Assembly: GCA_028679075.1 (NCBI GenBank)
Contig: JAJRCF010000014.1
Span: 1-64,000 of the forward strand
DNA: 64,000 nt
Direction: 5' to 3'
Origin: Methanoregula sp.
GTDB lineage: Archaea; Halobacteriota; Methanomicrobia; Methanomicrobiales; Methanospirillaceae
Under the pieces are notes generated by a model. The model made no database searches. It was not told the origin of the DNA and saw only the letters and a program-made list of their open reading frames with translations. Positions 3,427-60,194 of this stretch are shown one piece after another. Both the position numbers and the translations under genes were made by a program. Numbering within the stretch: the first letter of the stretch is position 1; every line of letters begins with the position of its first letter.

Positions 3427-3523
3427 TTGTTTTACCTCATGTCCGCGGGACCGGTCATGGGTTGGATTGCGTAATCACCAGCTGAACCGGATGCGAACAG
3501 GTAACCCTCTGCGCACCAGCTAT

Positions 3524-20393: not shown

Positions 20394-23300
20394 ATGAAGA
20401 TCACTTCTGTTATGTGGGGGTCCTATGCCCCTGTCATGAAACGTGCAGCGGAAACCTGTGGTATCCGGTGTTCCGTATATCCCACCCGCATTCTTGAAGA
20501 ATCACCGGAAAAAAGGGAAGAAGCAATTGCCTCAATGAAACACTCCGATGTAATCCTCCTCTACCATACCTCGGACCTGTTCTGGGAAGAGATAGACCGG
20601 GAAATCGAAGTGATCAAAAAAACAGTCCCCGTTATCTCGCTCGGGCCCGATCCCTCCTTCTGGACACAGTCGACCGTGGGAGCAGAGATTGTCACTACCT
20701 GTCACCGGTACATCACCAACAACGGGGATGAAAATTTTAAGAACCTTCTCCGGTATATCGACCGGGAACTCTTTGGTGCCGACTGCCTGGCAGCACCGCC
20801 TGTGGATGTTCCCTGGGAGGGGCTGTACCATCCTGCTGCACCGCAGGTATTCGCCAGCGTTGATGAATACCTTGCCTGGTACGGGGATCGGGCAGACGGG
20901 AAATACCGGGCTGCCCTGATCTTCTCCCGTACGTCGTGGGCGGCAGGCAACGTTGCCCTCGAAGATCAGCTGATCGCAAGCCTCGAAGCCGAAGGCCTCG
21001 CCGTCATACCCATATTTACCTATGCGATCCGGGATGAATCTCTCGGAGCCCGGGGCATGGCGGAAGTGGTGTCCGATTATCTCCTCCGTGACGGTGTACC
21101 CCGGGTCGATGCACTGGTCAAGCTCATCCCGTTCCTTTTCGGCTCGGTGAAGGGTACTGCCCAGTCACGGACCAGCACCTCGGACGGGATCGACCTGCTC
21201 AGGTCTTTTGATGTCCCTGTATTCTCCCCCGTCGTGTCCATGTACATGACCCTCGAGCAGTGGAAGGCATCGGAAGGGCTCTCCATGGACGTCGGGTGGT
21301 CGGTGGCCCTGCCGGAGTTCGAGGGGGTGGTAGAACCGGTCTTTGTCGGGACCAGCAGGAGCGAACCTGACGGCGGCAAGACCCGGGAAGCCATCCCGGA
21401 CCGGTGCGCGAAAATTGCGGGCAGGGTCCGGCGATGGATTGCCCTTTGCAAAAAATCCGCCGGTGAGCGGAAGGTCGGGTTCATCTTAAACAACAACCCG
21501 TGCGCCGGGACCGAGGCAAATATCGGGGGCGGTTCCAACCTCGACACGCTGGAGAGCGTTGCACGGATCCTGTACCGGATGGCGGATGCGGGGTATGCCG
21601 TTACCCCGCCGGCATCCGGAAAGGAACTCGTGGAAACCATCCAGAAGAAAAAGGCCATATCGGAGTTCCGGTGGACAACGGCCCGGGACATCGTGGCATG
21701 CGGGGGTGCCCTTGCGCAGATGGACCTGGACACGTACCTGCCGTATTTCCGGTCGCTTCCCGAGAGAGTACAGCAGCAGGTGAACGCCACCTGGGGAGAG
21801 CCCCCCGGACAGGGAATGGTGCTCGACAACAGGATGCTGATCACCGGCATCCGGTGTGGCAATGCCACCATCCACGTCCAGCCCAAGCGCGGGTGTTACG
21901 GCTCGCGGTGTGACGGCACGGTCTGCAAGATCCTCCACGATCCCAAGTGCCCGCCGCCTCACCAGTACCTGGCCACGTACTACTGGCTTGATCGGGTCCA
22001 GGAGGCCGATGTCCTCATCCACGTCGGCACGCATGGCAGCCTTGAGTTCCTGCCGGGCAAGGGGACCGGCCTCTCGCAGGAATGTTTCCCGGACATTGCT
22101 GCCGGGACGCTGCCGTTCCTGTACATCTACAACTCCGATAACCCGGCAGAAGGCACGATTGCCAAGCGGCGCGGCTATGCGGTACTGGTCGATCACATGC
22201 AGACTGTCATGACCGGGAGCGGACTGTACGAAGGCCTTGAGGAGATCGACAGTATCCTCACCGAGTACGAGACCACCCGGCACGACCCGGCCCGCGCCCA
22301 TGCCCTCCAGCACCAGCTCACCGAGGCCCTGATCCGGGCGAACCTGGACAAGGACATGCACCTGGTTCATGGGATGCCCCTCGACGTCATGGCGGCAAAG
22401 GCCCACGAAGCGCTCTCGAAGATCCGCAACACCCGGATCCAGTCCGGCATGCACGTCTTTGGCACCGTCCCCGCGGGAGATCAACGGGTGGAGTTCATCA
22501 GTTCCATCATCCGGTTCGATTCCGGCGAGACCTCGCCCCGCCGGCTCATTGCCAGGGTCCTCGGGTTTGACCTGACCGATCTCCTTGCCGGGCAGGGCCG
22601 GTATTCCGATCAGCACGGGATGTCCTATGGTGCACTCCTCGAACAGGTCGACCTGGAGCTGGGACGCTTCATCGCTACCGTGCTGGAAGACCCGGCTCAT
22701 CCCGTAGCCCTGATCTTCGGCAGGAGGATCCCCGATGAACAGATCCAGGACCTCAATCTCGTGAGGGAACGGGTGATCGACATCAGCCGGCGCATCGACG
22801 GATCCCGGGAGATCGACGCCCTCCTGCATGGCATGGACGGCCGCTACGTCCCCGCAGGCCCCTCCGGCCAGATCACGCGGGGGCACGAAGACGTGCTGCC
22901 TACCGGCCGGAACTTCTACTCGCTGGACCCGCACCGCGTCCCGACCCGGGCCGCATGGAGGGTGGGACAGCGCCTGGCCGATGCGCTCATTGAGAAATAT
23001 TCCCGCGAGGAAGGCACGGTCCCCGAGAACATCGCGTTCTACTGGATGGCGGGCGACATCATGGCCTCGGACGGCGAGATGTTTGCCGAGATGCTCTGGC
23101 TGATCGGGGCACGCCCGGTATGGCAGAAGAACGGGCAGGTGAAGTCCTTTGAGGTGATCCCGCTCCACAAGCTCGGCCACCCTAGGATCGACATTACGGT
23201 CCGCACCACCGGCATCCTGCGGGACAATTTTGCGAACTGCTACGAGCTGCTCGACGATGCCATACAGGCCGTTGCCGCACTTAACGAACCACCGGACCGG

Positions 23301-24200
23301 AACTTCGTACGCCGGCACACACAGAAGAGTATTGTCGAGAACGGTGCCGGTTTCCGCGATGCAACATTGCGGATCTTTTCCTCCAAGCCGGGCTCGTATG
23401 CAAGCGGTGTCAACCTTGCCGTGCTTTCAAGCGCGTGGAAGACCCAGGCAGACCTTGCAGATATCTTCGTTGCGTATAACGGGTACGCATACGGGAGGGA
23501 CGTACAGGGAAAGGATGCCCACGAGCACCTTGCAGCCAGCCTCTCGACAGTATCGGTCACGTTCAACAAGATCCAGTCCGATGAGCAGGACCTCCTTGGC
23601 TGCTGCTGCTATTTCGGTACGCAGGGAGGATTCACCGCAGCAGCCCGGCACTATTCCGGCAACAACGTGAAGCCCTATTACGGGGATACCCGCGAGCCAG
23701 AGAACGTCGAGGTGCGCGATCTCGCCGATGAGATCCGCCGTGTCGTCCGGACAAAGCTCCTCAATCCGAAATGGATCTACGGCATGAAAGACCACGGGTA
23801 CAAGGGGGCTTCCGATATTATGAAACGGGTGACCCGTGTCTATGGCTGGTCAGCTTCCACGCAGGAAGTGGACGACTGGATCTTCAACGACATTGCCGAT
23901 ACGTTTGTCAACAATGAGGAGATGCGGGACTTCTTCGAGCAGAACAACCCCTATGCCCTCGAAGAGATTGCACGGCGGCTCCTTGAAGCACATACACGCA
24001 GCCTCTGGGATGCCGATCCCCGGGTGCTCGATGACCTGAAAAAGAACTACCTTGAGATCGAGTCCTGGATGGAAGACCAGTCCGGCCAGGGCGATTACCA
24101 GGGGGGCAACGTCGACATCGTCACCATGGAAGACAATCCCTTTTGGGGCGATGGGCTGAAAGATATCCTCGGAAAAGTACATGCGAAACACCAGCGCTGA
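20394..24200 (+). CDS. cobN: CobN-type large chelatase subunit
   Basis: A 1268-residue protein of the CobN/ChlH/BchH family. The N-terminus (MKITSVMWGSYAPVMKRAAE) is followed by the ChlH-type sensing region. The catalytic body contains QPKRGCYGSRCDG and the conserved HVGTHGSLEFLPGKGTGLS, then NNVKPYYGD and KDHGYKGASD near the C-terminus, all usual for cobaltochelatase CobN. Length matches the family. The large subunit binds the tetrapyrrole and inserts the metal, driven by ChlI/D. Methanogens are known to insert cobalt early with small CbiX-type chelatases and nickel for F430 with CfbA, so a CobN here has no assigned role. Thirty bases before the ABC-2 ATPase, likely co-transcribed. Confidence 0.92.
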   Translation: MKITSVMWGSYAPVMKRAAETCGIRCSVYPTRILEESPEKREEAIASMKHSDVILLYHTSDLFWEEIDREIEVIKKTVPVISLGPDPSFWTQSTVGAEIVTTCHRYITNNGDENFKNLLRYIDRELFGADCLAAPPVDVPWEGLYHPAAPQVFASVDEYLAWYGDRADGKYRAALIFSRTSWAAGNVALEDQLIASLEAEGLAVIPIFTYAIRDESLGARGMAEVVSDYLLRDGVPRVDALVKLIPFLFGSVKGTAQSRTSTSDGIDLLRSFDVPVFSPVVSMYMTLEQWKASEGLSMDVGWSVALPEFEGVVEPVFVGTSRSEPDGGKTREAIPDRCAKIAGRVRRWIALCKKSAGERKVGFILNNNPCAGTEANIGGGSNLDTLESVARILYRMADAGYAVTPPASGKELVETIQKKKAISEFRWTTARDIVACGGALAQMDLDTYLPYFRSLPERVQQQVNATWGEPPGQGMVLDNRMLITGIRCGNATIHVQPKRGCYGSRCDGTVCKILHDPKCPPPHQYLATYYWLDRVQEADVLIHVGTHGSLEFLPGKGTGLSQECFPDIAAGTLPFLYIYNSDNPAEGTIAKRRGYAVLVDHMQTVMTGSGLYEGLEEIDSILTEYETTRHDPARAHALQHQLTEALIRANLDKDMHLVHGMPLDVMAAKAHEALSKIRNTRIQSGMHVFGTVPAGDQRVEFISSIIRFDSGETSPRRLIARVLGFDLTDLLAGQGRYSDQHGMSYGALLEQVDLELGRFIATVLEDPAHPVALIFGRRIPDEQIQDLNLVRERVIDISRRIDGSREIDALLHGMDGRYVPAGPSGQITRGHEDVLPTGRNFYSLDPHRVPTRAAWRVGQRLADALIEKYSREEGTVPENIAFYWMAGDIMASDGEMFAEMLWLIGARPVWQKNGQVKSFEVIPLHKLGHPRIDITVRTTGILRDNFANCYELLDDAIQAVAALNEPPDRNFVRRHTQKSIVENGAGFRDATLRIFSSKPGSYASGVNLAVLSSAWKTQADLADIFVAYNGYAYGRDVQGKDAHEHLAASLSTVSVTFNKIQSDEQDLLGCCCYFGTQGGFTAAARHYSGNNVKPYYGDTREPENVEVRDLADEIRRVVRTKLLNPKWIYGMKDHGYKGASDIMKRVTRVYGWSASTQEVDDWIFNDIADTFVNNEEMRDFFEQNNPYALEEIARRLLEAHTRSLWDADPRVLDDLKKNYLEIESWMEDQSGQGDYQGGNVDIVTMEDNPFWGDGLKDILGKVHAKHQR

Positions 24201-26130: not shown

Positions 26131-26553
26131 CTAATCTTCAATTGCAATTGTCGTGAGTTTCACGGATTCGACACCCTTGTGGGCCATCAGTTTCTCGGCA
26201 AGGGCTTTGAGTTTGCTGCCGTCGCCATGGACGAGAATTACCTCAAGGCACCGCTCCTTGGTCACGTGCGAGTGGAGCGAGGCCTTGATGATCTCGTGGT
26301 ATTCGTGCTCGACCTCCACGATCGAGGAGAGGAGATTGCGCTGCTCGTGGTCGTACACCATCGTGATGACCCCCTCCCTCTCTCCCTTGACGTCCGACAT
26401 CCACTTGTAATACGTGATATACGTACGGATTGCATCGCGTATGCCTTCGGAGCGCGATGAGTAGCCACGATAGTTCAGGATTTCATCGAACCGGTCGAGC
26501 AGGTTTTTCGGAAGCGATATGCCAATCCGTGAGAGATCGTCGTCCATGGTCAT
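26131..26553 (-). CDS. nikR: NikR nickel-responsive regulator, copy 1
   Basis: A 140-residue NikR with the ribbon-helix-helix DNA-binding domain (RIGISLPKNLLDRFDEIL, RSEGIRDAIRTY) and the ACT-like nickel domain. The high-affinity nickel ligands are present: H83, H94, H96 and C102, matching E. coli H76, H87, H89 and C95 in spacing. With nickel bound, NikR represses nickel uptake genes. Differs from copy 3 (35959) at about nine positions, so these are recent duplicates. Convergent with the ABC-2 permease. Candidate targets are the TAWTAC-N14-GTAWYA sites listed below. Confidence 0.95.
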   Translation of the reverse strand: MTMDDDLSRIGISLPKNLLDRFDEILNYRGYSSRSEGIRDAIRTYITYYKWMSDVKGEREGVITMVYDHEQRNLLSSIVEVEHEYHEIIKASLHSHVTKERCLEVILVHGDGSKLKALAEKLMAHKGVESVKLTTIAIED

Positions 26554-27937: not shown

Positions 27938-28309
27938 CTAGGGATCCGGCGCATGCGCAAGTTCCGGTTTCCGGTAGCTCATATAGAGCTGGTTATGCCG
28001 CTTCGCCCACCTTAACAGGGGGACAATTGACTCCCGGAGATCTCTGCCATGTTCGGTAAGTGAATACTCGACACGCGGTGGGATCTCCCCGTAGGAGGTC
28101 CGCTTGATGAGCCCGGTGTCCTGGAGGTCCCTTAAGACATCGGCAAGTGATTTGGGACTTATCTTGCCACAGTCTTTCATGATCTCGGAAAACCTCATGG
28201 ATGGCCGCCGGCCCAGCTCCGAGATGATGCAGATCGCCCACTTCTTCGAGATGGTGGGCATAATCCCCCGGAGACAGCAGAGGCAGAGATGGTCGCTTTC
28301 ATCTTCCAT
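27938..28309 (-). CDS. HxlR-family winged-helix regulator
   Basis: A 123-residue HxlR-type regulator: LRGIMPTISKKWAICIISEL is the usual first helix region, followed by the wHTH segment RFSEIMKDCGKISPKSLADVLRDLQDTGLI and the wing (EIPPRVEYSLTEHGRDL). The family's frequent N-terminal Cys is present, here as CLCCL (residues 9-13), which may sense redox state or a metal. It is divergent from mcrB with 183 bp between starts, so it may control the methyl-coenzyme M reductase operon or itself. The short gap from its ATG to the TATAAA-type sequence implies a nearly leaderless transcript. Confidence 0.85.
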   Translation of the reverse strand: MEDESDHLCLCCLRGIMPTISKKWAICIISELGRRPSMRFSEIMKDCGKISPKSLADVLRDLQDTGLIKRTSYGEIPPRVEYSLTEHGRDLRESIVPLLRWAKRHNQLYMSYRKPELAHAPDP

Positions 28310-28492
28310 AGTTACTGCATTACTATAAAGTTTATACTATTAATAATTCAGGCACATTTGTATTATGAAATCATATTAATTTTAAAAATGGTGTTATTAT
28401 GTTTGACCGTTACTCAACCACGCATCCGCCGGGACCCGTATGTCATCCCGGTTTTATGGCGATTCCAGAAAACCACGCCGGAGCTGATACCC
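28310..28492. promoter_or_regulatory. Divergent promoter region hxlR-like / mcrB
   Basis: AT-rich from 28320 to 28400, holding the 13-bp palindrome TATAAAGTTTATA at 28324-28336, which gives a TATA-like box on both strands, and further TATA-like stretches (ATTTTAAAAATGG near 28380). The mcrB start at 28493 has GGAG eight bases upstream. The frame of mcrB is open for 68 codons above this ATG, but that part is AT-rich and has no McrB similarity, so I treat it as leader. Confidence 0.5.
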
Positions 28493-29797
28493 ATGGCACA
28501 TTACACTGAAACCATTGACCTCTATTCTGATGATGGGAAACTGCTGAAAAGCAGCGTGCAGCTGCACCGCATCAGCCCCCTTCTGAACCCGGCTGCAAAG
28601 ACGATTGTAGACTTAACCAAGCGGACGATCAATGTCAACCTTGCCGGTATCGAGGAGGCCTTAAAGACCGCAAAACTCGGTAAGGGCCGTATCCCCGGAC
28701 GGGAACTCGACCTCCCGATTATGGAAAGAAAAGATGCCCTGATTGAGAAGATCAAATCGATGGTACAGGTTGAAGATGGCGATGACACGGACATCCAGCA
28801 GTTCAATGGCGGCAATCTCCTGCTCGTCAGAGCCCCCACGATCAGGCTCTCCGGGGCATCCACGTACGATGCAGCCATTACTGCGGTGGCTTCCGCGGTA
28901 ACTTACGCGATTGTGGATGAATTCAATATCGACGCGTTCAATGCCTCGACCGTCAAGGCGGCCGCGTGGGGCAGTTACCCGCACACGCAGGACATGGAAG
29001 GCGCTCTTGTCACCTCGATCCTCACGATTCCCCAGAACAATGAGGGGATCGGGTATGCACTGCGCAACATCAGCGTCAACCACTTCGTGATGATGACGAA
29101 CCGCAACGCCCTCCAGGGCGCTGCACTCGCGTCAACGTACGAAATGGCCGGCGTCTTTGAGATGGGCGGAGCTATCGGCCCATTCGAGCGCAACCAGCTG
29201 CTCTGTTACGCGTACCAGGGACTCAATGCCAACAACATGGTGTACGATATTGTCAGGGAGAACGGGCAGACCGGAACGGTCGGCTCCGTTGTCCAGTCCC
29301 TTGTTGACCGGGCAGTCGAGGATAGGGTCATCACGCCCGGGAAGAAAGGCGGGTATTTCCAGTTCTATGATACGAAAGATCCGATGCTATGGAATGCCTA
29401 TGTCTCGGCCGGCACGCTTGCGGCAAGTATCGTAAACTGCGGGGCCGGCAGGTTCGTGCAGGCGGTCTCGTCCACGCTCCTCTACTTCAATGACCTGATC
29501 GAGCACGAGACCGGCCTCCCCGGTGCGGACTTTGGCCGCGTGATGGGTACGGCGGTCGGGTTCTCGTTCTTCAGCCACTCGATCTATGGTGGCGGCGGCC
29601 CGGGCATCTTCAACGGTAACCACGTGGTCACCCGCCACGCGTATGGCATGGCGATCCCCTGTGTCGTTGCCGCAGCGGCCATGGATGGCGGCACCCAGAT
29701 GTTCGCACCGGAAGGGACATCCAAGATCATGGGCGAGACCTATGGGAAGATGGACGTCTTTTCTAAACCGATCCACCAGATTGCGGAGGTGGTGTGA
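28493..29797 (+). CDS. mcrB: Methyl-coenzyme M reductase beta subunit
   Basis: A 434-residue McrB, matching the family length when started at the ATG 28493 ([18 protein letters not shown]). MCR catalyses the last step of methanogenesis, methyl-CoM plus CoB to methane and heterodisulfide, as an alpha2-beta2-gamma2 cytoplasmic enzyme with nickel cofactor F430. McrB-specific stretches include [32 protein letters not shown] and [16 protein letters not shown] near the active-site channel. First gene of a B-D-G-A operon; the intergenic gap to mcrD is three bases. Confidence 0.97.
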
Positions 29798-29800
29798 GCC

Positions 29801-30301
29801 ATGAACACGATTACCACCTATCCCCAGTGCCGTATCGTGCCGATGCGCCTCCTTGGCCCGGACACGACACAGCGGCTGCTCGACCGGATTGTTAAAGTGC
29901 CAGGCATCCGCCGGATGCTCCTCAACGGCCAGAACATCCCTGCGGTCGTGCCCTATGGTCCGGCACGCGGTGCGAAGAACGAGACCCGCCTGCGGAAAAC
30001 AATCGAGATCGCCGGCAATTCTGTTGACCTCCACGTGCAGGTAGGTACCATCACGCTCGAGATCGAAGACAAGACCGTGATTGAACAGATCCGTGCGATC
30101 TGCGATGAATTTTTTGTGGATTTCCCGTGTTCTGTCCAGGAGGGGCGGTTCATGAAGTCGCAGCCGAGCCTTGTCGATTATGCAAAGTACGGCCCGGAGG
30201 CAGACCCGTCCGTGATCGGTCTTGTCGACCCGAAGCGGAAGGAGAAACCCTCCCTCATCCATCCCCTGGGCGATCGTGTCTGCGGGGGGTGCGAACTATG
30301 A
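29801..30301 (+). CDS. mcrD: Methyl-coenzyme M reductase operon protein D
   Basis: A 166-residue McrD. McrD is not a subunit of mature MCR; it binds assembly intermediates and is thought to help maturation. Recognisable by CRIVPMRLLGPDTTQRLLD at the start, MLLNGQNIPAVVPYGPARG in the middle, and the [11 protein letters not shown] ending with a Cys pair. Sits between mcrB and mcrG; its stop overlaps the mcrG start (ATGA at 30298). No mcrC follows. Confidence 0.93.
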   Translation: MNTITTYPQCRIVPMRLLGPDTTQRLLDRIVKVPGIRRMLLNGQNIPAVVPYGPARGAKNETRLRKTIEIAGNSVDLHVQVGTITLEIEDKTVIEQIRAICDEFFVDFPCSVQEGRFMKSQPSLVDYAKYGPEADPSVIGLVDPKRKEKPSLIHPLGDRVCGGCEL

Positions 30302-31065
30302 CGGCACGTTCACCCCAGTACGGGCCGGGGACTTCGGTAGTCGCGATCAACCGGCGAAAACAGATGGACCCGACGCACAAACTGACGACAATGCGGAATA
30401 TCACCGATGAAGACATCGTCCTCCTCCTCGGCCACCGGGCTCCCGGGGCGAGCTTCAAGACTATGCATCCCCCGATAACGGAACAGCAGGAACCCTCCTG
30501 CCCGATGCGGCATCTGGTGAAACCCACGGAAGGGGCAAAGCACGGCGACCGGGTCCGGTATGTCCAGTTCGCCGACTCCATGTTCAACGCCCCCTGCCAA
30601 CCTTACCAGCGGACCTATACAGAGATGTACCGCTTCCGAGGGATCGATCCCGGCACCCTGTCGGGACGGCAGATCGTTGAATGCCGCGAGAGGGACCTCG
30701 AACAGTACTGCCGGCTCCTGATCGAGACCGAGATGTTCGATCCTGCTCTTGTGAGCCTGCGGGGAGCCACCGTTCATGGCCACTCACTCCGCCTGTCAGA
30801 AGACGGTATGCAGTTCGATGCCCTCCAGCGGTGTATGCTTGGCAAGGACGGGATGGTCCGGTATGTCAAGGACCAGATCGGCCTACCCCTCAACCGGATG
30901 GTGGAGGTAGGAAAACCGCTCGACCAGAAATGGCTCAAGGAACATTCCACGATCTTCCACTGCCTTGTGGGTACGGCCCTGCGCGATGATGCCGAGTATG
31001 TCGAATACCTTCAGCGGATCCACACGCTGCGGACACGCTATGGCTTCATGCCAAGGGAGGCCTGA
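30298..31065 (+). CDS. mcrG: Methyl-coenzyme M reductase gamma subunit
   Basis: A 255-residue McrG when started at the ATG 30298, which overlaps the mcrD stop. Family motifs include [49 protein letters not shown] and [19 protein letters not shown]. The gamma subunit contributes to the coenzyme M and F430 pockets of the hexamer. The frame is open further upstream (to 30127) but that part overlaps mcrD in another frame. Followed by mcrA after five bases. Confidence 0.96.
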
Positions 31066-31070
31066 ATAAA

Positions 31071-32777
31071 ATGGCATCCGTAGAGCATTCCCAGAAACAG
31101 TTCTTAAAGGCACTCAGAGAGAAGTTCAAAGGACAGGATGTAGAATCGCAGAAGACCGAGTTCTATAAGTTCGGCGGCGTCCGCCAGTCCCCGCGGAAGC
31201 GGGAGTTCATGGAGGCAACAAAGAAAATCGAGGCGGATCGCGGGATCTCGATGTACGACCCCGAACACTGCCACCTGAACGGTATCCCGATGGGCCAGCG
31301 GCAGCTGATGACCTACGAGGTCTCGGGCACCGGCACGTTTGTCGAGGGCGACGATCTTCACTTTGTTAATAACTCTGCCATGCAGCAGATGTCTGACGAG
31401 ATCAAGCGGACGATCATCGTGGGTATGGACATTGCACACAACACCCTCCAGAAACGGCTCGGGAAGGAAGTCACCCCCCAGACCATCAACGAGTATCTCC
31501 ACATCATCAACCATGCGATGCCCGGCGGCGCTGTCGTCCAGGAGCACATGGTCGAGACCAATCCCGGTCTTGTTGACGACTGTTTTGTCAAGGTATTCAC
31601 CGGCAACGATGAAGTAGCCGATGACATCGAGCCGCAGTACCTCCTGAACATCGAGAAGCTCTTCCCAAAGAAACAGGCAGAGGCACTCAAGGCCGAGATT
31701 GGGAAGTCGATGTACCAGGCAATCCATGTCCCGACTATCGTTGTCAGGACCTGCGATGGCGGCACTACGAGCCGATGGTCTGCGATGCAGATCGGGATGT
31801 CATTCATTGCTGCGTACCGCACCTGTGCAGGAGAAGCAGCGGTTGCTGACCTCTCGTTTGCTGCAAAACATGCCGGTGTCATACAGATGGGGTCCCACCT
31901 GCCAGCCCGCAGGGCACGCGGTCCCAACGAGCCGGGAGGGATCAAGTTCGGGATGTTCTCCGATATGATCCAGGCCGACCGGAATTACCCGGACGACCCG
32001 GCCCATGCGGCCCTTGAAGTCGTGGCAGCGGGCGCAGTCCTGTTCGACCAGATCTGGCTGGGTTCCTATATGTCGGGCGGTGTCGGGTTCACCCAGTACG
32101 CAACGGCTGCGTACACGGACAATATTCTCGACGATTTCACGTACTATGGTATGGATTATATCAAGGACAAGTACTGGTACAATTATCACGAGCCGGGAGC
32201 AGACAAGGTGATTAGACCTACGCAGGATATTGTCAACGATATTGCGACCGAAGTAACACTCTACAGCATGGAGCAGTACGAGAAGTTCCCGACCTTAATG
32301 GAGGACTACTTCGGCGGCTCCCAGCGGGCCGCCGTAATGGCAGCGGCAGCGGGCCTGACCACTTCGATTGCCACGGGCAACTCGAATGCCGGCCTGAACG
32401 CGTGGTACCTTTCGATGATTGTCCACAAGGACGGCTGGTCACGCCTCGGGTTCTTTGGCTATGACCTGCAGGACCAGTGTGGATCCGCGAATTCGCTGTC
32501 GATGGAACCGGACCGTGGCGCAATGGGCGAACTGAGGGGTCCGAACTACCCGAACTATGCGATGAACGTGGGCCACCAGGGAGAGTACGCGGCAATTGTT
32601 GCCAGTGCCCACCTTGGACGGGCCGATGCGTTCTGTTACGATCCTCGGGTGAAGATCACCTTTGCCGATCCCTCGCTGAAGTTCGACTTCTCGCAGCCCC
32701 GTAAGGAGTTTGCAAAAGGCGCGATCCGGGAGTTCGAAGCCGCGGGCGAACGGTCGCTGATCATGCCGGCACGGTAA
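31071..32777 (+). CDS. mcrA: Methyl-coenzyme M reductase alpha subunit
   Basis: A 568-residue McrA. The standard diagnostic segment [20 protein letters not shown] is present, with active-site Y343 (M. marburgensis Tyr333). [11 protein letters not shown] holds Gly463, Asp468 and Cys470, equivalent to the thioglycine (445), didehydroaspartate (450) and S-methylcysteine (452) positions. [11 protein letters not shown] contains the arginine region that is C-methylated in known enzymes. No modification enzymes are encoded nearby. The B-D-G-A order without mcrC matches the isoenzyme called MRT (mrtBDGA) in other methanogens, so this may be an MCR II-type copy; I cannot decide from this window alone. 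Confidence 0.97.
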
Positions 32778-33752: not shown

Positions 33753-34097
33753 TCACGGTGCCGGTTTCCCGGCCAGCTTAATGCCATAGGCAAGCCCGAG
33801 TACAACAAGGAATGCAAGGATTGTACCGACAATGATCGCAATGAGGCCCCCCAGGGGTCCCAGGGAATCGCCAAGTGAATAATCCGGCATGGGAGACGAA
33901 TACGAGAAACGTCCGGCCGTCTCCTCATGGATTTCAGCATCGGCAGGTGTATCGCCGGTAATGGTCTTCTGCCCCTGAACAACAAGAGCAGTGCTTTCCA
34001 GGCCATCAGGATCTCCGGATGCAAGGAATACTGCCAGAGCACCAATGAGCAGGGCAACGATGATCCCCGCAATAATGAATGTCTTATTGTCCATCAT
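33753..34097 (-). CDS. PDGLE-domain (CbiN/NikN-like) nickel/cobalt transporter component
   Basis: A 114-residue membrane protein with two helices (TFIIAGIIVALLIGALAVFLA and GGLIAIIVGTILAFLVVLGLAYG) and the eponymous motif ASGDPDGLEST after helix 1, followed by an extracytoplasmic loop of about 45 residues. PDGLE proteins take the place of CbiN next to CbiM in energy-coupling-factor transporters of nickel or cobalt. It starts five bases after cbiM ends. No CbiQ or CbiO gene follows, so the energising module must come from elsewhere or be absent. Confidence 0.88.
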   Translation of the reverse strand: MMDNKTFIIAGIIVALLIGALAVFLASGDPDGLESTALVVQGQKTITGDTPADAEIHEETAGRFSYSSPMPDYSLGDSLGPLGGLIAIIVGTILAFLVVLGLAYGIKLAGKPAP

Positions 34098-34102
34098 GAT
34101 GA

Positions 34103-34753
34103 TCAGGCTCCGGCCCCCACTGAAGTCTTAACCCCTGTATCCATCAGATCAGGACGGACCTCCATGATCAGTCTGATTGCCGCGACCGTAACGATCGCTT
34201 CAATCACGCCAATGACTGCGTGATACAGGCCCATTGCAATGAGACCGACATTGAGCGGGAAAGTCCCGGCTAAATACATCTCAACTGCACAGGCAAGTGC
34301 CGGTATAAGACAGGCGAGCCAGGCTGCAATGAATGCAGAGATTGGCATGCTCTTTGTTACTTTCATGAGTCCTTTGAAGGAATAGAACCCGACAAAACCC
34401 CCGATCACGCCCATGTTGATGATGTTTGCACCCATGGTCGTGATGCCGCCATCCCCGAACATGATCCCCTGAACTACGAGGACCAAAGTCAGGATGAAGA
34501 TCGCGGCGAACGGCGATCCGAGAACGATCGCGGCAAGCGCTCCCCCGACAAGGTGCCCGCTGGTACCCATGGCAACCGGGAGATTGAAGGACTGGAGGGC
34601 AAAGATGCCCGCGGCAAGGACCGCAACAAGCGGAAACTTATCTTCGCCCAGTTCGTTCCTGGCCCACCGGAGGGCCAACGCTACAAAAATGAGGGCGATG
34701 ATCCAGTAGATCAGGCCCTGGTCAATGGGTATAAATGCGTCAGGGATATGCAT
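34103..34753 (-). CDS. cbiM: CbiM/NikM-type nickel/cobalt S-component
   Basis: I start at the ATG 34753 (MHIPDAFIPID), preceded by GGGAGGAAG, because the free N-terminus with His2 forms the metal site in NikM/CbiM; the longer frame from 34798 would destroy it. The 216-residue protein has seven hydrophobic segments and the typical MHIPD start, SFNLPVAMGTSGHLVGGALAA and YHAVIGVIEA. It binds Ni or Co extracellularly and moves it in with ATPase and T-component help. Nickel is the more likely metal given the adjacent NikR genes and operator. A NikR-like site lies 19-44 bp upstream of the start. Confidence 0.93.
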   Translation of the reverse strand: MHIPDAFIPIDQGLIYWIIALIFVALALRWARNELGEDKFPLVAVLAAGIFALQSFNLPVAMGTSGHLVGGALAAIVLGSPFAAIFILTLVLVVQGIMFGDGGITTMGANIINMGVIGGFVGFYSFKGLMKVTKSMPISAFIAAWLACLIPALACAVEMYLAGTFPLNVGLIAMGLYHAVIGVIEAIVTVAAIRLIMEVRPDLMDTGVKTSVGAGA

Positions 34754-34771
34754 GAACTTCCTCCCAGGAAT

Positions 34772-34797
34772 TATTACAACTCTGACAATTTGTAACA
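34772..34797 (-). promoter_or_regulatory. NikR-type operator of cbiM
   Basis: TATTAC-N14-GTAACA; extended it reads TTATTAC to GTAACAC, close to the GTGTTAC-N13/14-GTAACAC operator reported for Geobacter NikR. On the minus strand it lies just downstream of a TATA-like ACTATATGA stretch (about 34800-34808), so bound protein would cover the likely transcription start. Confidence 0.7.
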
Positions 34798-34912
34798 CTC
34801 ATATAGTTAAAAAGATTGTTTTTTGATTACCAAAAGTAATTGATATTTTTCAATGGTGATAAAAAATTGTAAATTATTTAAAAAAATCACGAAGAAAAAT
34901 GGTTAAGTTATG

Positions 34913-35374
34913 TTACTGATGTGACGGCTGTACGCGCTTGAGAAGGGGATCGCCTATCGGTATTGTAGTGATCTTCACCGTCTCAATTCCATTCAGAGAC
35001 GTCAACATTTTTACAAGAGCCTTGATTTGTACAGTACTACCCTGAATAACAAAAAGATCAAGTTGTCGGTCCTGACTGATATTTTTCCGAAGTGAAATCC
35101 TGATGATATCCTGGTATTCGTACCGGATTTCATAAATGGAGGTCAGGAGATTCTCCTTCTTGCAATCATAAAGAATGGTAATGACACCCATTTTGTCGTT
35201 GGTCCTGTTGTCAAACCACTGATTATTGATATTGAAGAACTGAATAGCATCGTGGATCCCTTTGGACCGGGAAGTATATCCCCGATGTATGAGAATTTCA
35301 TCGAGTTGTTCGATCATGGATGCAGGAAGAGTGACTCCAAACCTGGAGGTGTGATTATCCGGATCTGATGTCAT
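34913..35374 (-). CDS. NikR paralogue lacking all four nickel ligands
   Basis: A 153-residue protein with the NikR layout: ribbon-helix-helix domain (SRFGVTLPASMIEQLDEIL, RSKGIHDAI) and ACT-like domain (MGVITILYD, KALVKMLTSLNGIETVKITTIPIGD). At the ligand positions of copies 1 and 3 (His, His, His, Cys) it has Y85, R96, N98 and Q104, so the high-affinity square-planar nickel site is gone. It also carries a 10-residue C-terminal tail. It lies directly upstream of cbiM in the same direction, 160 bp apart. Either a nickel-independent or differently liganded regulator, or a protein that modulates true NikR by forming mixed oligomers. The DNA-contacting beta strand also differs. Confidence 0.88.
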   Translation of the reverse strand: MTSDPDNHTSRFGVTLPASMIEQLDEILIHRGYTSRSKGIHDAIQFFNINNQWFDNRTNDKMGVITILYDCKKENLLTSIYEIRYEYQDIIRISLRKNISQDRQLDLFVIQGSTVQIKALVKMLTSLNGIETVKITTIPIGDPLLKRVQPSHQ

Positions 35375-35450: not shown

Positions 35451-35473
35451 ATATGATATAATTAAATCATATG
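35451..35473 (-). promoter_or_regulatory. Inverted repeat upstream of the divergent nikR paralogue
   Basis: ATATGAT-N8-ATCATAT, a perfect 7-bp inverted repeat within an AT-rich stretch about 80 bp upstream of the start at 35374. It differs from the TAWTAC-N14-GTAWYA sites and could be an operator for this paralogue itself. Coordinates accurate to a few bases. Confidence 0.35.
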
Positions 35474-35958: not shown

Positions 35959-36381
35959 ATGACCATGGATGACGACCTATCCCGGATCGGCATATCGCTG
36001 CCGAAAAACCTGCTCGACCGGTTCGACGAAATCCTCAACTACCGCGGCTACTCCTCGCGGTCGGAAGGTATACGCGATGCGATCCGGACATACATTACTT
36101 ATTACAAGTGGATGTCTGACGTCAAGGGGGCGCGGGAAGGTGTCATTACGATGGTGTACGACCATGAGCAGCGCAACCTTCTCTCTTCCATCACAGAGAT
36201 TGAACACGATTATCATGAGGTTATCAAGGCCTCGCTCCACTCCCATGTCACCCATGAGCGGTGCCTGGAAGTAATTCTTGTTCACGGGGACGGCTCCCAG
36301 CTCAAGGCTCTTGCCGAGAAATTGATGTCCCACAAGGGTGTCGAGTCAGTCAAACTTACAACAATCGCCATCGAAGAATAA
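35959..36381 (+). CDS. nikR: NikR nickel-responsive regulator, copy 3
   Basis: A 140-residue NikR about 94% identical to copy 1, with all nickel ligands (H83, H94, H96, C102). The first 57 residues, which contact DNA, are identical to copy 1, so both should recognise the same operators. Differences lie in the nickel domain (for example A58, T79, H99, S123). A pair of GTAATATTCC / GGATATTAC segments flanks the region just upstream of the ATG. With copy 1 it brackets the mcr and cbiM genes on opposite strands. Confidence 0.95.
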   Translation: MTMDDDLSRIGISLPKNLLDRFDEILNYRGYSSRSEGIRDAIRTYITYYKWMSDVKGAREGVITMVYDHEQRNLLSSITEIEHDYHEVIKASLHSHVTHERCLEVILVHGDGSQLKALAEKLMSHKGVESVKLTTIAIEE

Positions 36382-45618: not shown

Positions 45619-45729
45619 ATAACGGTGTATCATTTTTCATCAGTATTTCATCAGTATTATATCAAATCCGGGGTTCTTGAGGTTTTATGAATATAAGGGG
45701 CTTCTGAATAAACTGTTTAAATTACTGCG

Positions 45730-45755
45730 TATTACGAAAATTAAAATATGTAATA
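45730..45755 (+). promoter_or_regulatory. NikR-type operator of nickel/peptide system 2
   Basis: TATTAC-N14-GTAATA, a perfect six-base inverted repeat with a 14-base AT-only-plus-G spacer, 28 bp before the permease start at 45784. A TATA-like TTTAAA lies about 12 bp upstream. Confidence 0.7.
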
Positions 45756-45783
45756 TTTATAACGCTCAACATCACACTATCGT

Positions 45784-57941: not shown

Positions 57942-59021
57942 TCACCCGAAAATGATCCGTCCCTTGTTTCTCAGGAGGTAACAGAGATATGGGGCACCAA
58001 GGATTGAAGCGATGATGCCCACGGGAATTTCTGCATTCGTGAGTGTCCGTGCCATGGTGTCGCAGATTATCAGATAAATTCCGCCCATCATGAAGGATGC
58101 CGGGATCACGTACCGGTTGTCCGGCCCGAGAAGAATTCTTGAGGCATGGGGCATCATCAGGCCGACCCAGGCAATGATGCCCACAAGGGAAACGGCAAAT
58201 GCCGTGACGGCAGTTGCAATACTGATGACAATGAACTTGTATCGCTCCGGGTTCACACCCAGTGTCCGTGCCTCATCATCACCCATGGAAAGAATATTGA
58301 GCTTCCATCCCAGCGCCCAGAGAATGATGAAGCCGACAATTACAACCGGGGCAATGACCCGGACATCATTCCATGTGGCATAGTAAAATCCCCCCATCAT
58401 CCAGAAAACAATCTCTCGTAAGGCCGCATCGGTGGAGAGGTATTTCAGGAGTGAGACCAGTGCTGCAAATATTGATCCGACAATAACCCCGGCGAGAATC
58501 AGGGTGACAACCGGGGTCTCTCCCCGCACCCGGGCAAGGAGGTATGCGACCGCGACAGCAATGGACCCGAATGCAAACGCGGATAACTGGAGCGAGAAGA
58601 AAATTGCAGGAAATACGATGCCGAGTGCTGCTCCGAATGCGGCCCCGGAAGAAACGCCGAGGATATATGGTTCTACGAGCGGGTTCCTGAAGACCCCCTG
58701 AAAAACCGCCCCGGCTATTGCAAGAGCTCCCCCAACAAACAGGGTGAGCAATATCCGTGGTGCTCGTATGTCCCAGATGATTGTGTTGTTGAGTTTTTCG
58801 ATTGCCGATACGTCACCGAACGTGACGTGGGTAAACACCGTCTGGTAGACATCCAGGACCGTGAACCCGTATTTGCCCATAACAACCGCTGTCAGGGCCG
58901 AGATAAACATGATTACCGCAATAATAAGAAGGATCAGTATCTTCTTGTATTCTGAAAATCCTCCGACATCGTCATAGCCCATCCTTTCCAGCAGTCGTTT
59001 TAACCGTGTTGTCTCTGTCAT
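57942..59021 (-). CDS. FecCD/BtuC-type ABC importer permease
   Basis: A 359-residue permease of the FecCD family with about ten helices: DIRAPRILLTLFVGGALAIAG, the RNPLVEPYILGVSSGAAFGA core, GIIAWVGLMMPHASRILLG and the terminal GAPYLCYLLRNKGRIIFG. Its start overlaps the methyltransferase stop by four bases. With the ATPase and three receptors it forms a complete class II importer for a metal complex. Confidence 0.92.
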   Translation of the reverse strand: MTETTRLKRLLERMGYDDVGGFSEYKKILILLIIAVIMFISALTAVVMGKYGFTVLDVYQTVFTHVTFGDVSAIEKLNNTIIWDIRAPRILLTLFVGGALAIAGAVFQGVFRNPLVEPYILGVSSGAAFGAALGIVFPAIFFSLQLSAFAFGSIAVAVAYLLARVRGETPVVTLILAGVIVGSIFAALVSLLKYLSTDAALREIVFWMMGGFYYATWNDVRVIAPVVIVGFIILWALGWKLNILSMGDDEARTLGVNPERYKFIVISIATAVTAFAVSLVGIIAWVGLMMPHASRILLGPDNRYVIPASFMMGGIYLIICDTMARTLTNAEIPVGIIASILGAPYLCYLLRNKGRIIFG

Positions 59022-60064
59022 CTTGCTACTTTCCTTGAAACAATAATCCGCGACGGGTGGAACGGCGTATTTAAATCGTGCACTTTTTCGATCTCAAAAC
59101 CATTGGATTCCAGGGTCCTGGAAAATTCTGCAGAAGAATAGACGCGATCGGTGTCTTCTGCAAGGGAGAACATGAGATCGAAATATACCGCTGTCGCATC
59201 CCGGACAATATCGTCGATATGCCAGTGTTTTGAGATGAATATCCCGTCATTATTGAGGCTGGAATGTACTCTGCCGAGGATGGCATCCATCTGCGTTTTT
59301 TCCCGGTATAGTACATCGGATGCAAAGACCATGTCATACCCTGGACCAAGATTGTCCTTGGTAAAGTCTCCGGGAATGGCGGTGACCCGGTCCGCATGAT
59401 ACGTTGATATCATTGGTGAGGTTACCTGTTTGACTACCGAGGGGAGATCCAGGACTGTTGAAAAAAGACCCGGGTTCATCTGGGTAAAGGCAATCGAATA
59501 AAGACCATGGCCTCCACCAAGGTCAAGCATGGTTTTTACGTTCCGGAATCCCGGATAGTTTTTCATGAACTCGATTGTCTTTTGCAGACTTCCCCGTACC
59601 GCACCTTCGGCCATTGCGTGGACAAACCCTGCATCAAAGACTCCATGAAGGCCATCTTCGTACCCCTCAGGACCGTTGCGGATGATCTCGGACAGGTGGC
59701 TCCACCGGTCATTCCGTGTGGTGTTCCAGAGGTTGATGAGATTTCCCTGGTAAAAGGGGGATTTTTTCCGGAAAAAAGCTCTCGAACTGTCTGTTGGTGC
59801 AAAATGTCCGTCAATCTGTTGCATGAAGCCGGAGGCTACAAGTGCATTGCAGAATTTGCCCGTGATCTTTTTTTGCAGACCCAGACGATCAGCAAGTTCA
59901 TCTGACGTTTTCGGCTCATCGAGCGCGTCAAAAACTCCCAGTTCCACTGCTGTTGCAACAATCCGATATGTTTCAACAGCGTGTGCAAGCTCCTGAAGCT
60001 TTCCGATATCTTCGGGTGGTAATAATTCAAGATTGGGGTTGAATGTTATTATTGGATCATCCAT
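59018..60064 (-). CDS. O-methyltransferase-like SAM-dependent methyltransferase with winged-helix dimerisation domain
   Basis: A 348-residue protein of the acetylserotonin O-methyltransferase-like family: an N-terminal winged-helix dimerisation domain (ELGVFDALDEPKTSDELADR, FCNALVASGFMQQ) and a C-terminal SAM domain with MLDLGGGHGLYSIAFTQMNP, GDFTKDNLGPGYDMVFASDV and a C-terminal IIVSRKV. It is the first gene of the operon and lies 12 bp from a NikR-like site, suggesting nickel-dependent expression. Relatives in other organisms methylate small molecules, including tetrapyrrole precursors (BchU-type C-20 methyltransferase), which would fit a tetrapyrrole ligand; this is inference. Confidence 0.88.
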   Translation of the reverse strand: MDDPIITFNPNLELLPPEDIGKLQELAHAVETYRIVATAVELGVFDALDEPKTSDELADRLGLQKKITGKFCNALVASGFMQQIDGHFAPTDSSRAFFRKKSPFYQGNLINLWNTTRNDRWSHLSEIIRNGPEGYEDGLHGVFDAGFVHAMAEGAVRGSLQKTIEFMKNYPGFRNVKTMLDLGGGHGLYSIAFTQMNPGLFSTVLDLPSVVKQVTSPMISTYHADRVTAIPGDFTKDNLGPGYDMVFASDVLYREKTQMDAILGRVHSSLNNDGIFISKHWHIDDIVRDATAVYFDLMFSLAEDTDRVYSSAEFSRTLESNGFEIEKVHDLNTPFHPSRIIVSRKVAR

Positions 60065-60075
60065 GGATTAGTTGT

Positions 60076-60101
60076 TATTACATAATAAAATAAAAGTATT
60101 A
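60076..60101 (-). promoter_or_regulatory. NikR-type operator of the Fec/methyltransferase operon
   Basis: TATTAC-N14-GTATTA, 11 bp upstream of the ATG of the first gene (60064). Same half-sites and exactly the same spacing as at cbiM and nickel/peptide system 2. Its position near the start codon implies a nearly leaderless transcript with the site over the promoter. Confidence 0.65.
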
Positions 60102-60194
60102 CTAAATGATATCTAATCGGGTTGTTTAGCTCCTGTCATTCCCTATACCGCATAGCATGTGAGGAATATTGTATGTGAGGTGTTTTTCTGGACC

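Follow-up and report, generated by a model that had tools for sequence, protein, structure and literature searches.

The gene at 34913-35374 of the stretch of Methanoregula DNA analysed here (64,000 nucleotides, hereafter the window) belongs, as judged from sequence, to a small group of nickel-blind NikR paralogues, confined to one genus, that is maintained and is not a one-off broken gene. We call such a ligand-free protein lfNikR. What could a NikR without nickel ligands do? The best explanation is that it is a DNA-binding regulator which no longer reads nickel and which competes at NikR operators or puts a floor under NikR repression. This reading is tentative, with a probability of about 0.45. 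The genes of the window needed for the argument are as follows.

20394-24200, forward strand: CobN-like chelatase, part of the nickel island (context)
26131-26553, reverse strand: intact NikR, copy A, four ligands present by alignment
28289-32777, forward strand: mcrB to mcrA, for the nickel enzyme methyl-coenzyme M reductase (context; assigned by eye from the translations)
33753-34097, reverse strand: nikN, PDGLE/CbiN type, by family-model matches
34103-34753, reverse strand: nikM, CbiM-type S component, ATG at 34753; a longer GTG reading frame starts at 34798
34913-35374, reverse strand: lfNikR, ATG start, 153 aa, open frame
35959-36381, forward strand: intact NikR, copy B, four ligands present by family-model matches and alignment

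Thus nikN, nikM and the lf gene lie in a row on the reverse strand and are followed by an intact nikR on the forward strand, and the CobN-like gene, nikR copy A and mcr lie beyond nikN. The lf stop codon is 159 bp 5' of the nikM (cbiM) ATG, in agreement with the preliminary description, which had placed the paralogue directly upstream of cbiM. The window nikM and nikN (33753-34753) have no adjoining nikQ or nikO, and only short open reading frames separate them from mcrA. The source genome (G000, 2.50 Mb, 90% complete) carries two further nikM genes, and it has three intact NikR genes besides lfNikR.

The window protein scores 59.9 bits on PF08753 (NikR_C, cut-off 22), so this domain is present, and it passes the NCBIfam model PRK01002 (nickel responsive regulator) with a margin of about 1 bit (112.3 bits, cut-off 111). 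On PF01402, the RHH_1 model of the ribbon-helix-helix (RHH) domain, it reaches 20.0 bits, marginally lower than the cut-off of 20.5; the lfNikR of G036 reaches 26.5 bits. With the neighbouring intact copy B it shares 42% identity over 140 aa. The ligand positions were assigned from His76, His87, His89 and Cys95 of E. coli NikR (PMC7055735, section 2.1). In the alignment, Y85, R96, N98 and Q104 of the window protein occupy the positions of H83, H94, H96 and C102. HHHC is present without exception in the 117 full-length intact rows, while the window protein has YRNQ and thus, by alignment, lacks the whole set that marks the high-affinity nickel site of NikR. The earlier claims that this paralogue has lost all four ligands, and that it cannot form the standard nickel site, are therefore borne out.

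Is the fold retained? AlphaFold2 models were built for four sequences. The C-domain of the window protein is modelled with pLDDT of 81-92, and the lf C-domain superposes on HpNikR (2y3y_C) with an rmsd of 1.0 A over 79 columns in Foldseek and a Z of 15.1 in VIA-align; against ACT domains the lf model gives Z of 10-12. In the monomer model, residues 1-60 have block means of only 31-56, and both RHH helices are at low confidence. Of the proposal that the RHH and ACT-like folds are both kept, the C-terminal half is thus supported by the models, in which the C-domain fold is kept, while the RHH half is backed by sequence, the model being poor there. Compared with NikR of E. coli, H. pylori and P. 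horikoshii (PRK01002, PF08753 plus PF01402), lfNikR shares the NikR_C domain, preceded by a probable RHH, the length, the C-domain fold, the residues of the DNA-reading strand and the location beside nickel genes. It differs in that those proteins have the four high-affinity nickel ligands, and in the window copy E36, equivalent to Glu30 of the potassium site in E. coli, is Lys. The C-domain also resembles TM1266 of Thermotoga (2nzc), which has a NikR_C-like fold (VIA-align Z 14.3); however, TM1266 is stand-alone without an RHH domain, while lfNikR probably retains one. TM1266 has been linked to hydrogenase.

To what extent is this paralogue shared? NikR loci were sampled from 108 genomes of the family, 100 of which have a NikR place, and all places were read except a 52-residue fragment (G107:C150). 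The ligand columns were compared in 137 distinct reading frames, four of them from other families of the order. HHHC is present in 119 of the 137, and five full-length frames have none of the four ligands: the window (YRNQ), G061 and G035 (both NMQR), G069 (TQQR) and G036 (NQAR). A sixth lf gene, in G057, is frameshifted and split over two frames, and has decayed. All these genomes belong to Methanoregula, the genus of the window, and make up 6 of its 39 genomes with the decayed copy counted. Each also encodes intact NikR. At least two full-length non-lf NikR genes are found in 5 of the 6 lf genomes, again counting the decayed one, against 1 of the 33 other genus members (p = 6e-5, or 2e-4 if a partial gene of G059 is included; genes were counted by hand). 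The group was recognised from the ligand columns and not from a single-protein search: searched with the window protein alone, neither the 108 family genomes nor the 232 genomes of the order gave an orthologue above 45% identity, and viral contigs gave no match. A clean gap in profile score between lf and intact proteins was considered and dropped. Profile A1, built from three rows, split off four members and left G036 among the intact proteins, so no such gap is claimed. The suggested comparison of methanogen NikR paralogues thus does recover a conserved ligand-free group, with five open members in Methanoregula.

Losses of a single ligand were also seen, at L139:704-1129 (NHHC, G061) and L104:641-1069 (HHQC, G060), which are possible early stages of ligand loss. 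A separate class is formed by eight NikR_C frames in Methanoregulaceae without RHH and with most nickel ligands gone, some of them near an intact nikR.

L154:603-926: stand-alone NikR_C frame
L155:701-1231: stand-alone NikR_C frame
L072:10332-10640: stand-alone NikR_C frame
L156:571-972: stand-alone NikR_C frame
L044:2938-3381: stand-alone NikR_C frame
L157:749-1069: stand-alone NikR_C frame
L055:82-450: stand-alone NikR_C frame
L110:635-895: stand-alone NikR_C frame

All lf proteins have [NH][NH]QW after helix 2 in common. We searched this signature as a DNA pattern for D-A-I-[RQ]-x4-[NH][NH]QW. Among 157 loci all the lf ones match the pattern and none of the intact NikR genes does, and the window has one match where 0 are expected. 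Of the 232 Methanomicrobiales genomes, 5 contain it, in one of 40 genera and exactly at the five lf genes. A sample of 392 genomes from 136 genera of the phylum gave known members alone, 4 genomes of one genus, and lf proteins elsewhere without [NH][NH]QW would be missed by this search.

There is a further question of concern, whether the lf genes are maintained or are on their way to decay. We defined 57 near-invariant columns as those conserved in at least 116 of the 117 intact rows, a set that leaves out L139, L104 and the very divergent L153. Cells were counted on four distinct lf sequences; G035 was omitted because it is almost identical to G061. Nickel-ligand cells are lost in 16 of 16, while the other 53 columns lose 63 of 212 (Fisher 1.5e-8). 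Near-invariant cells are kept in 90 of 112 cases in the RHH and in 51 of 84 at the non-ligand positions of the C-domain. On the DNA-reading strand of the protein R9 and G11 are kept in five of five proteins and S13 in four, the window having T, and the S33-R34-S35 turn is kept in all five. The changes of the window DNA head are S13T, E36K, R39H and R43Q in intact numbering. The window protein is the most diverged member, keeping 30 of the 57 near-invariant residues, and its gene is AT-rich (GC 0.42, GC3 0.49; 0.52-0.54 GC in the intact paralogues).

When an intact gene was randomly mutated to 42% identity in a simulation of neutral drift, only 5 of 300 runs stayed free of stops, and none exceeded 108.6 bits on the intact-NikR profile, on which the five lf proteins score 132-172. 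Pairs of lf genes show pN of 0.32-0.40 and pS of 0.71-0.77, while pN is 0.04 for the intact pair A/B. By these scores and ratios the group has been under constraint yet evolves far faster than intact NikR. The lf genes of G035 and G061, 99.4% identical, have no synonymous and 2-3 non-synonymous differences and lend no support to selection at the short time scale, dN/dS being uninformative at this identity. Taken over their divergence, the lf proteins have been under purifying selection as a group; relaxed selection may still apply to the window copy, the most diverged member. The possibility that the gene occurs only here, with signs of decay and no purifying selection, is refuted, since other genomes carry lf genes and the group shows such selection. 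In the tree from all columns a branch supported at 97/93 sets the lf rows apart, and it keeps an SH-aLRT of 83 after the hallmark and ligand columns are removed (L153 was dropped from this second tree). The branch to the window lfNikR is 7-10 changes per column long. Placed singly, the lf protein of G061 does not join the Methanoregula NikR rows, and this weakens an easy claim of single origin. With branches of such length, a single origin of the group is no more than likely.

Every lf gene adjoins nickel genes or else the hmd cluster, which belongs to the nickel-free [Fe]-hydrogenase. In G069 the order is intact nikR, lf and then the 3' end of mcrA, while in G036 lf and intact nikR stand in tandem and face nikM, which is accompanied by two genes judged by eye to be cbiO- and cbiQ-like. 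The order in G035 is CobN-like, ABC genes, intact nikR, lf, an FrhD-type protease and one further gene, after which come HmdB (TIGR03957), an Hmd-related gene (TIGR01724), Hmd (TIGR01723, 577 bits) and mcrB. G061 has the same block from lf to Hmd, with 98-100% identity to G035 gene by gene over the eight genes compared. This lf-frhD-hcg block (L069:10116-17232 and L071:9603-16722) is near-identical in two genomes assigned to different species, a pattern that points to recent transfer or recombination. A search of the 39 genus genomes with an Hmd-related protein gave matches in G035 and G061 only. The decayed lf gene of G057 is about 6.6 kb from mcrA, and an intact nikR is found within 0.2-2.8 kb of lf in four of five cases.

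Are there operators that such a protein could read? A survey of nikM upstream regions, with 30 loci taken from 37 listed places, gave the element RTRYTAC-N14-GTAAYAM 5' of nikM in all 28 Methanoregula loci with a readable start. It always begins at -40 to -46 of the nikM start codon and has 10-13 of 14 consensus bases, against mostly 8-9 in shuffled controls. It is probably the operator of intact NikR. In the predicted NikR sites of delta-proteobacteria, as given in part of PMC545781, a close element is found, GTGTTAC-N13/14-GTAACAC. The sites in the window and before hmd, and a further inverted repeat, are these.

34771-34798: NikR-type operator of nikM, between lfNikR and nikM, -18 to -45 of the nikM ATG
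45729-45756: second NikR-type operator, by matrix scan, in front of an ABC operon (-28 to -55 of the oligopeptide/nickel-type permease gene, 45784)
60075-60102: third NikR-type operator, by matrix scan, upstream of a reverse-strand gene (59018-60064) beside a BtuC-like ABC permease in a cobalamin/iron-type cluster
L164:1883-1910 and L071:19100-19127: NikR-type sites of hmd in G035 and G061, with further sites in the block
35451-35472: inverted repeat ATATGAT-N8-ATCATAT, -77 to -98 of the lfNikR ATG

The second and third sites are possible additional NikR targets, and a fourth matrix-scan match, at 3523, is the weakest. The strict form of the operator occurs at two places in the source genome, 34771-34798 and C25:15701-15728, the latter just 5' of the nikM at C25:15059-15688. 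Since the reversed control pattern gave 3 matches per strand in this genome, it is the position of these sites and not their count that is telling. Upstream of the lf genes no clear NikR operator is found (best 8.6-13.3 bits, training sites mostly 17-24), so autoregulation of lf is not indicated. The distinct inverted repeat described earlier before the paralogue is present, while its role as an operator was rejected. A perfect repeat with 7-bp arms arises in 48% of shuffles of the same 300-bp stretch, that is, no more than chance, and by eye none of this type is seen in the 250-bp upstreams of the lf genes in G061, G069 and G036; in G069 the two hexamers ATCATA and TATGAT occur in reverse order. 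No inverted repeat stood out among 104 upstreams of NikR-type genes. Before hmd, the NikR-type site of G035 and G061 scores 17.4 bits and lies 25-52 bases upstream of the earliest possible start of the gene. Four further hmd genes in the order reach 12.4, 12.4, 11.1 and 5.6 bits (shuffles, 95% 10.5 and 99% 14.2). A NikR operator before hmd as a rule for the order was therefore rejected, the site being strong only in G035 and in the same block of G061.

A regulator acting without nickel is proposed because the DNA head is kept, the sensor is lost, the frame is maintained and the nickel neighbourhood is constant. Any of the three roles raised in the preliminary description, an apo-type repressor, a sensor of another ligand or a partner of intact NikR in mixed oligomers, may apply. 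With its DNA-binding head and oligomerising C-domain kept and nickel sensing lost, lfNikR would bind NikR-type operators, or a near variant, at any nickel level. It would then compete with Ni-NikR at genes for nickel uptake and nickel sparing, or keep repression there from falling below a nickel-independent level. The conserved NikR operator next door could be read by the lf DNA head. We take R9, G11 and S13 to correspond to the DNA-reading residues R3, T5 and T7 of E. coli NikR, and because they are kept, save S13T in the window, most lf members could read the half-site of intact NikR. The window copy, with its altered head (S13T, E36K, R39H, R43Q), may recognise an operator other than the RTRYTAC half-site. 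The absence of a clear NikR operator upstream of the lf genes, the low retention of near-invariant residues in the window copy, its RHH_1 score just under the cut-off and its very long branch speak against the regulator reading.

Then why not a subunit that simply disables intact NikR? In this dominant-negative scenario lfNikR would enter mixed tetramers and lower nickel-dependent repression. Since each nickel site is built from three ligands of one chain and one of its neighbour (PMC7055735, section 2.1), lf subunits would remove nickel sites. The oligomerising C-domain in the fold models, the intact NikR of every lf genome with the excess of NikR genes (5 of 6 against 1 of 33) and the short distance to an intact nikR all fit such a role. 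However, lf and intact proteins are only about 40-55% identical, the C-domain has diverged more than the DNA head, unlike a domain kept for pairing, and a pure poison subunit would not require DNA residues. We regard this scenario as unlikely. In another reading the protein would be locked in a metal-free DNA-binding state, with the shared R82 and the Arg or Gln at the former Cys replacing the structural role of nickel. Such a permanently active NikR would keep promoters of nickel uptake or of the nickel-free hydrogenase at a fixed level and compete with the nickel-sensing copies; this reading is improbable.

It is also unlikely that the ACT-like C-domain senses another ligand at the emptied site. 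Some new residues are common to the group, R at 82 in four of four distinct lf proteins (Q or E in intact) and R or Q at 102, and the resemblance to ACT domains points to a fold that often binds small molecules; but positions 83, 94 and 96 carry different residues from member to member, which is not what a common pocket would show, and the gene context suggests no ligand. A relaxed, dispensable paralogue on its way out, caught at various stages, would explain the frameshifted gene of G057, the presence of lf in only 6 of 39 genomes, and the base composition, long branch and several changed RHH invariants of the window copy. Against this stand five open frames at saturated synonymous divergence, profile scores far above the neutral runs, and a DNA head retained more than the ligand site, and this explanation too is given little weight. 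Last, nickel or another metal might be bound through other residues, C71 of the window, which replaces H69 of intact NikR, being a possible soft ligand. The other lf proteins have F or Y there and no Cys or His, and the group is without a shared His/Cys cluster, so that such a site is very improbable.

The proposed regulator has a parallel in the predicted NikR regulon of Desulfovibrio desulfuricans, for which the relevant part of PMC545781 gives a nearly identical operator and a NikR site before a nickel-free hydrogenase. The difference is that a normal NikR and the iron-only HydAB are involved there, while Methanoregula has Hmd and an adjoining ligand-free NikR. In M. marburgensis under nickel limitation hmd goes up and frh goes down, according to portions of PMC3087415 and PMC12350162, and the CobN1 protein and a NikR1 homologue reach a high level only under this limitation (portion of PMC12350162). 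This suggests that CobN-nikR islands like that of the window belong to the nickel-limitation response. The same portions of PMC3087415 and PMC12350162 name no regulator of hmd, and among titles in the open-licence literature none concerned a ligand-free NikR, NikR in Methanoregula or NikR control of hmd. How a methanogen switches between nickel and nickel-sparing enzymes is an active question. A nickel-blind NikR located by nikMN, mcrA and hmd, with an operator before hmd in two genomes, is a testable candidate regulator for this switch, and lfNikR adds a case of a metalloregulator which has lost its sensor and kept its DNA head.
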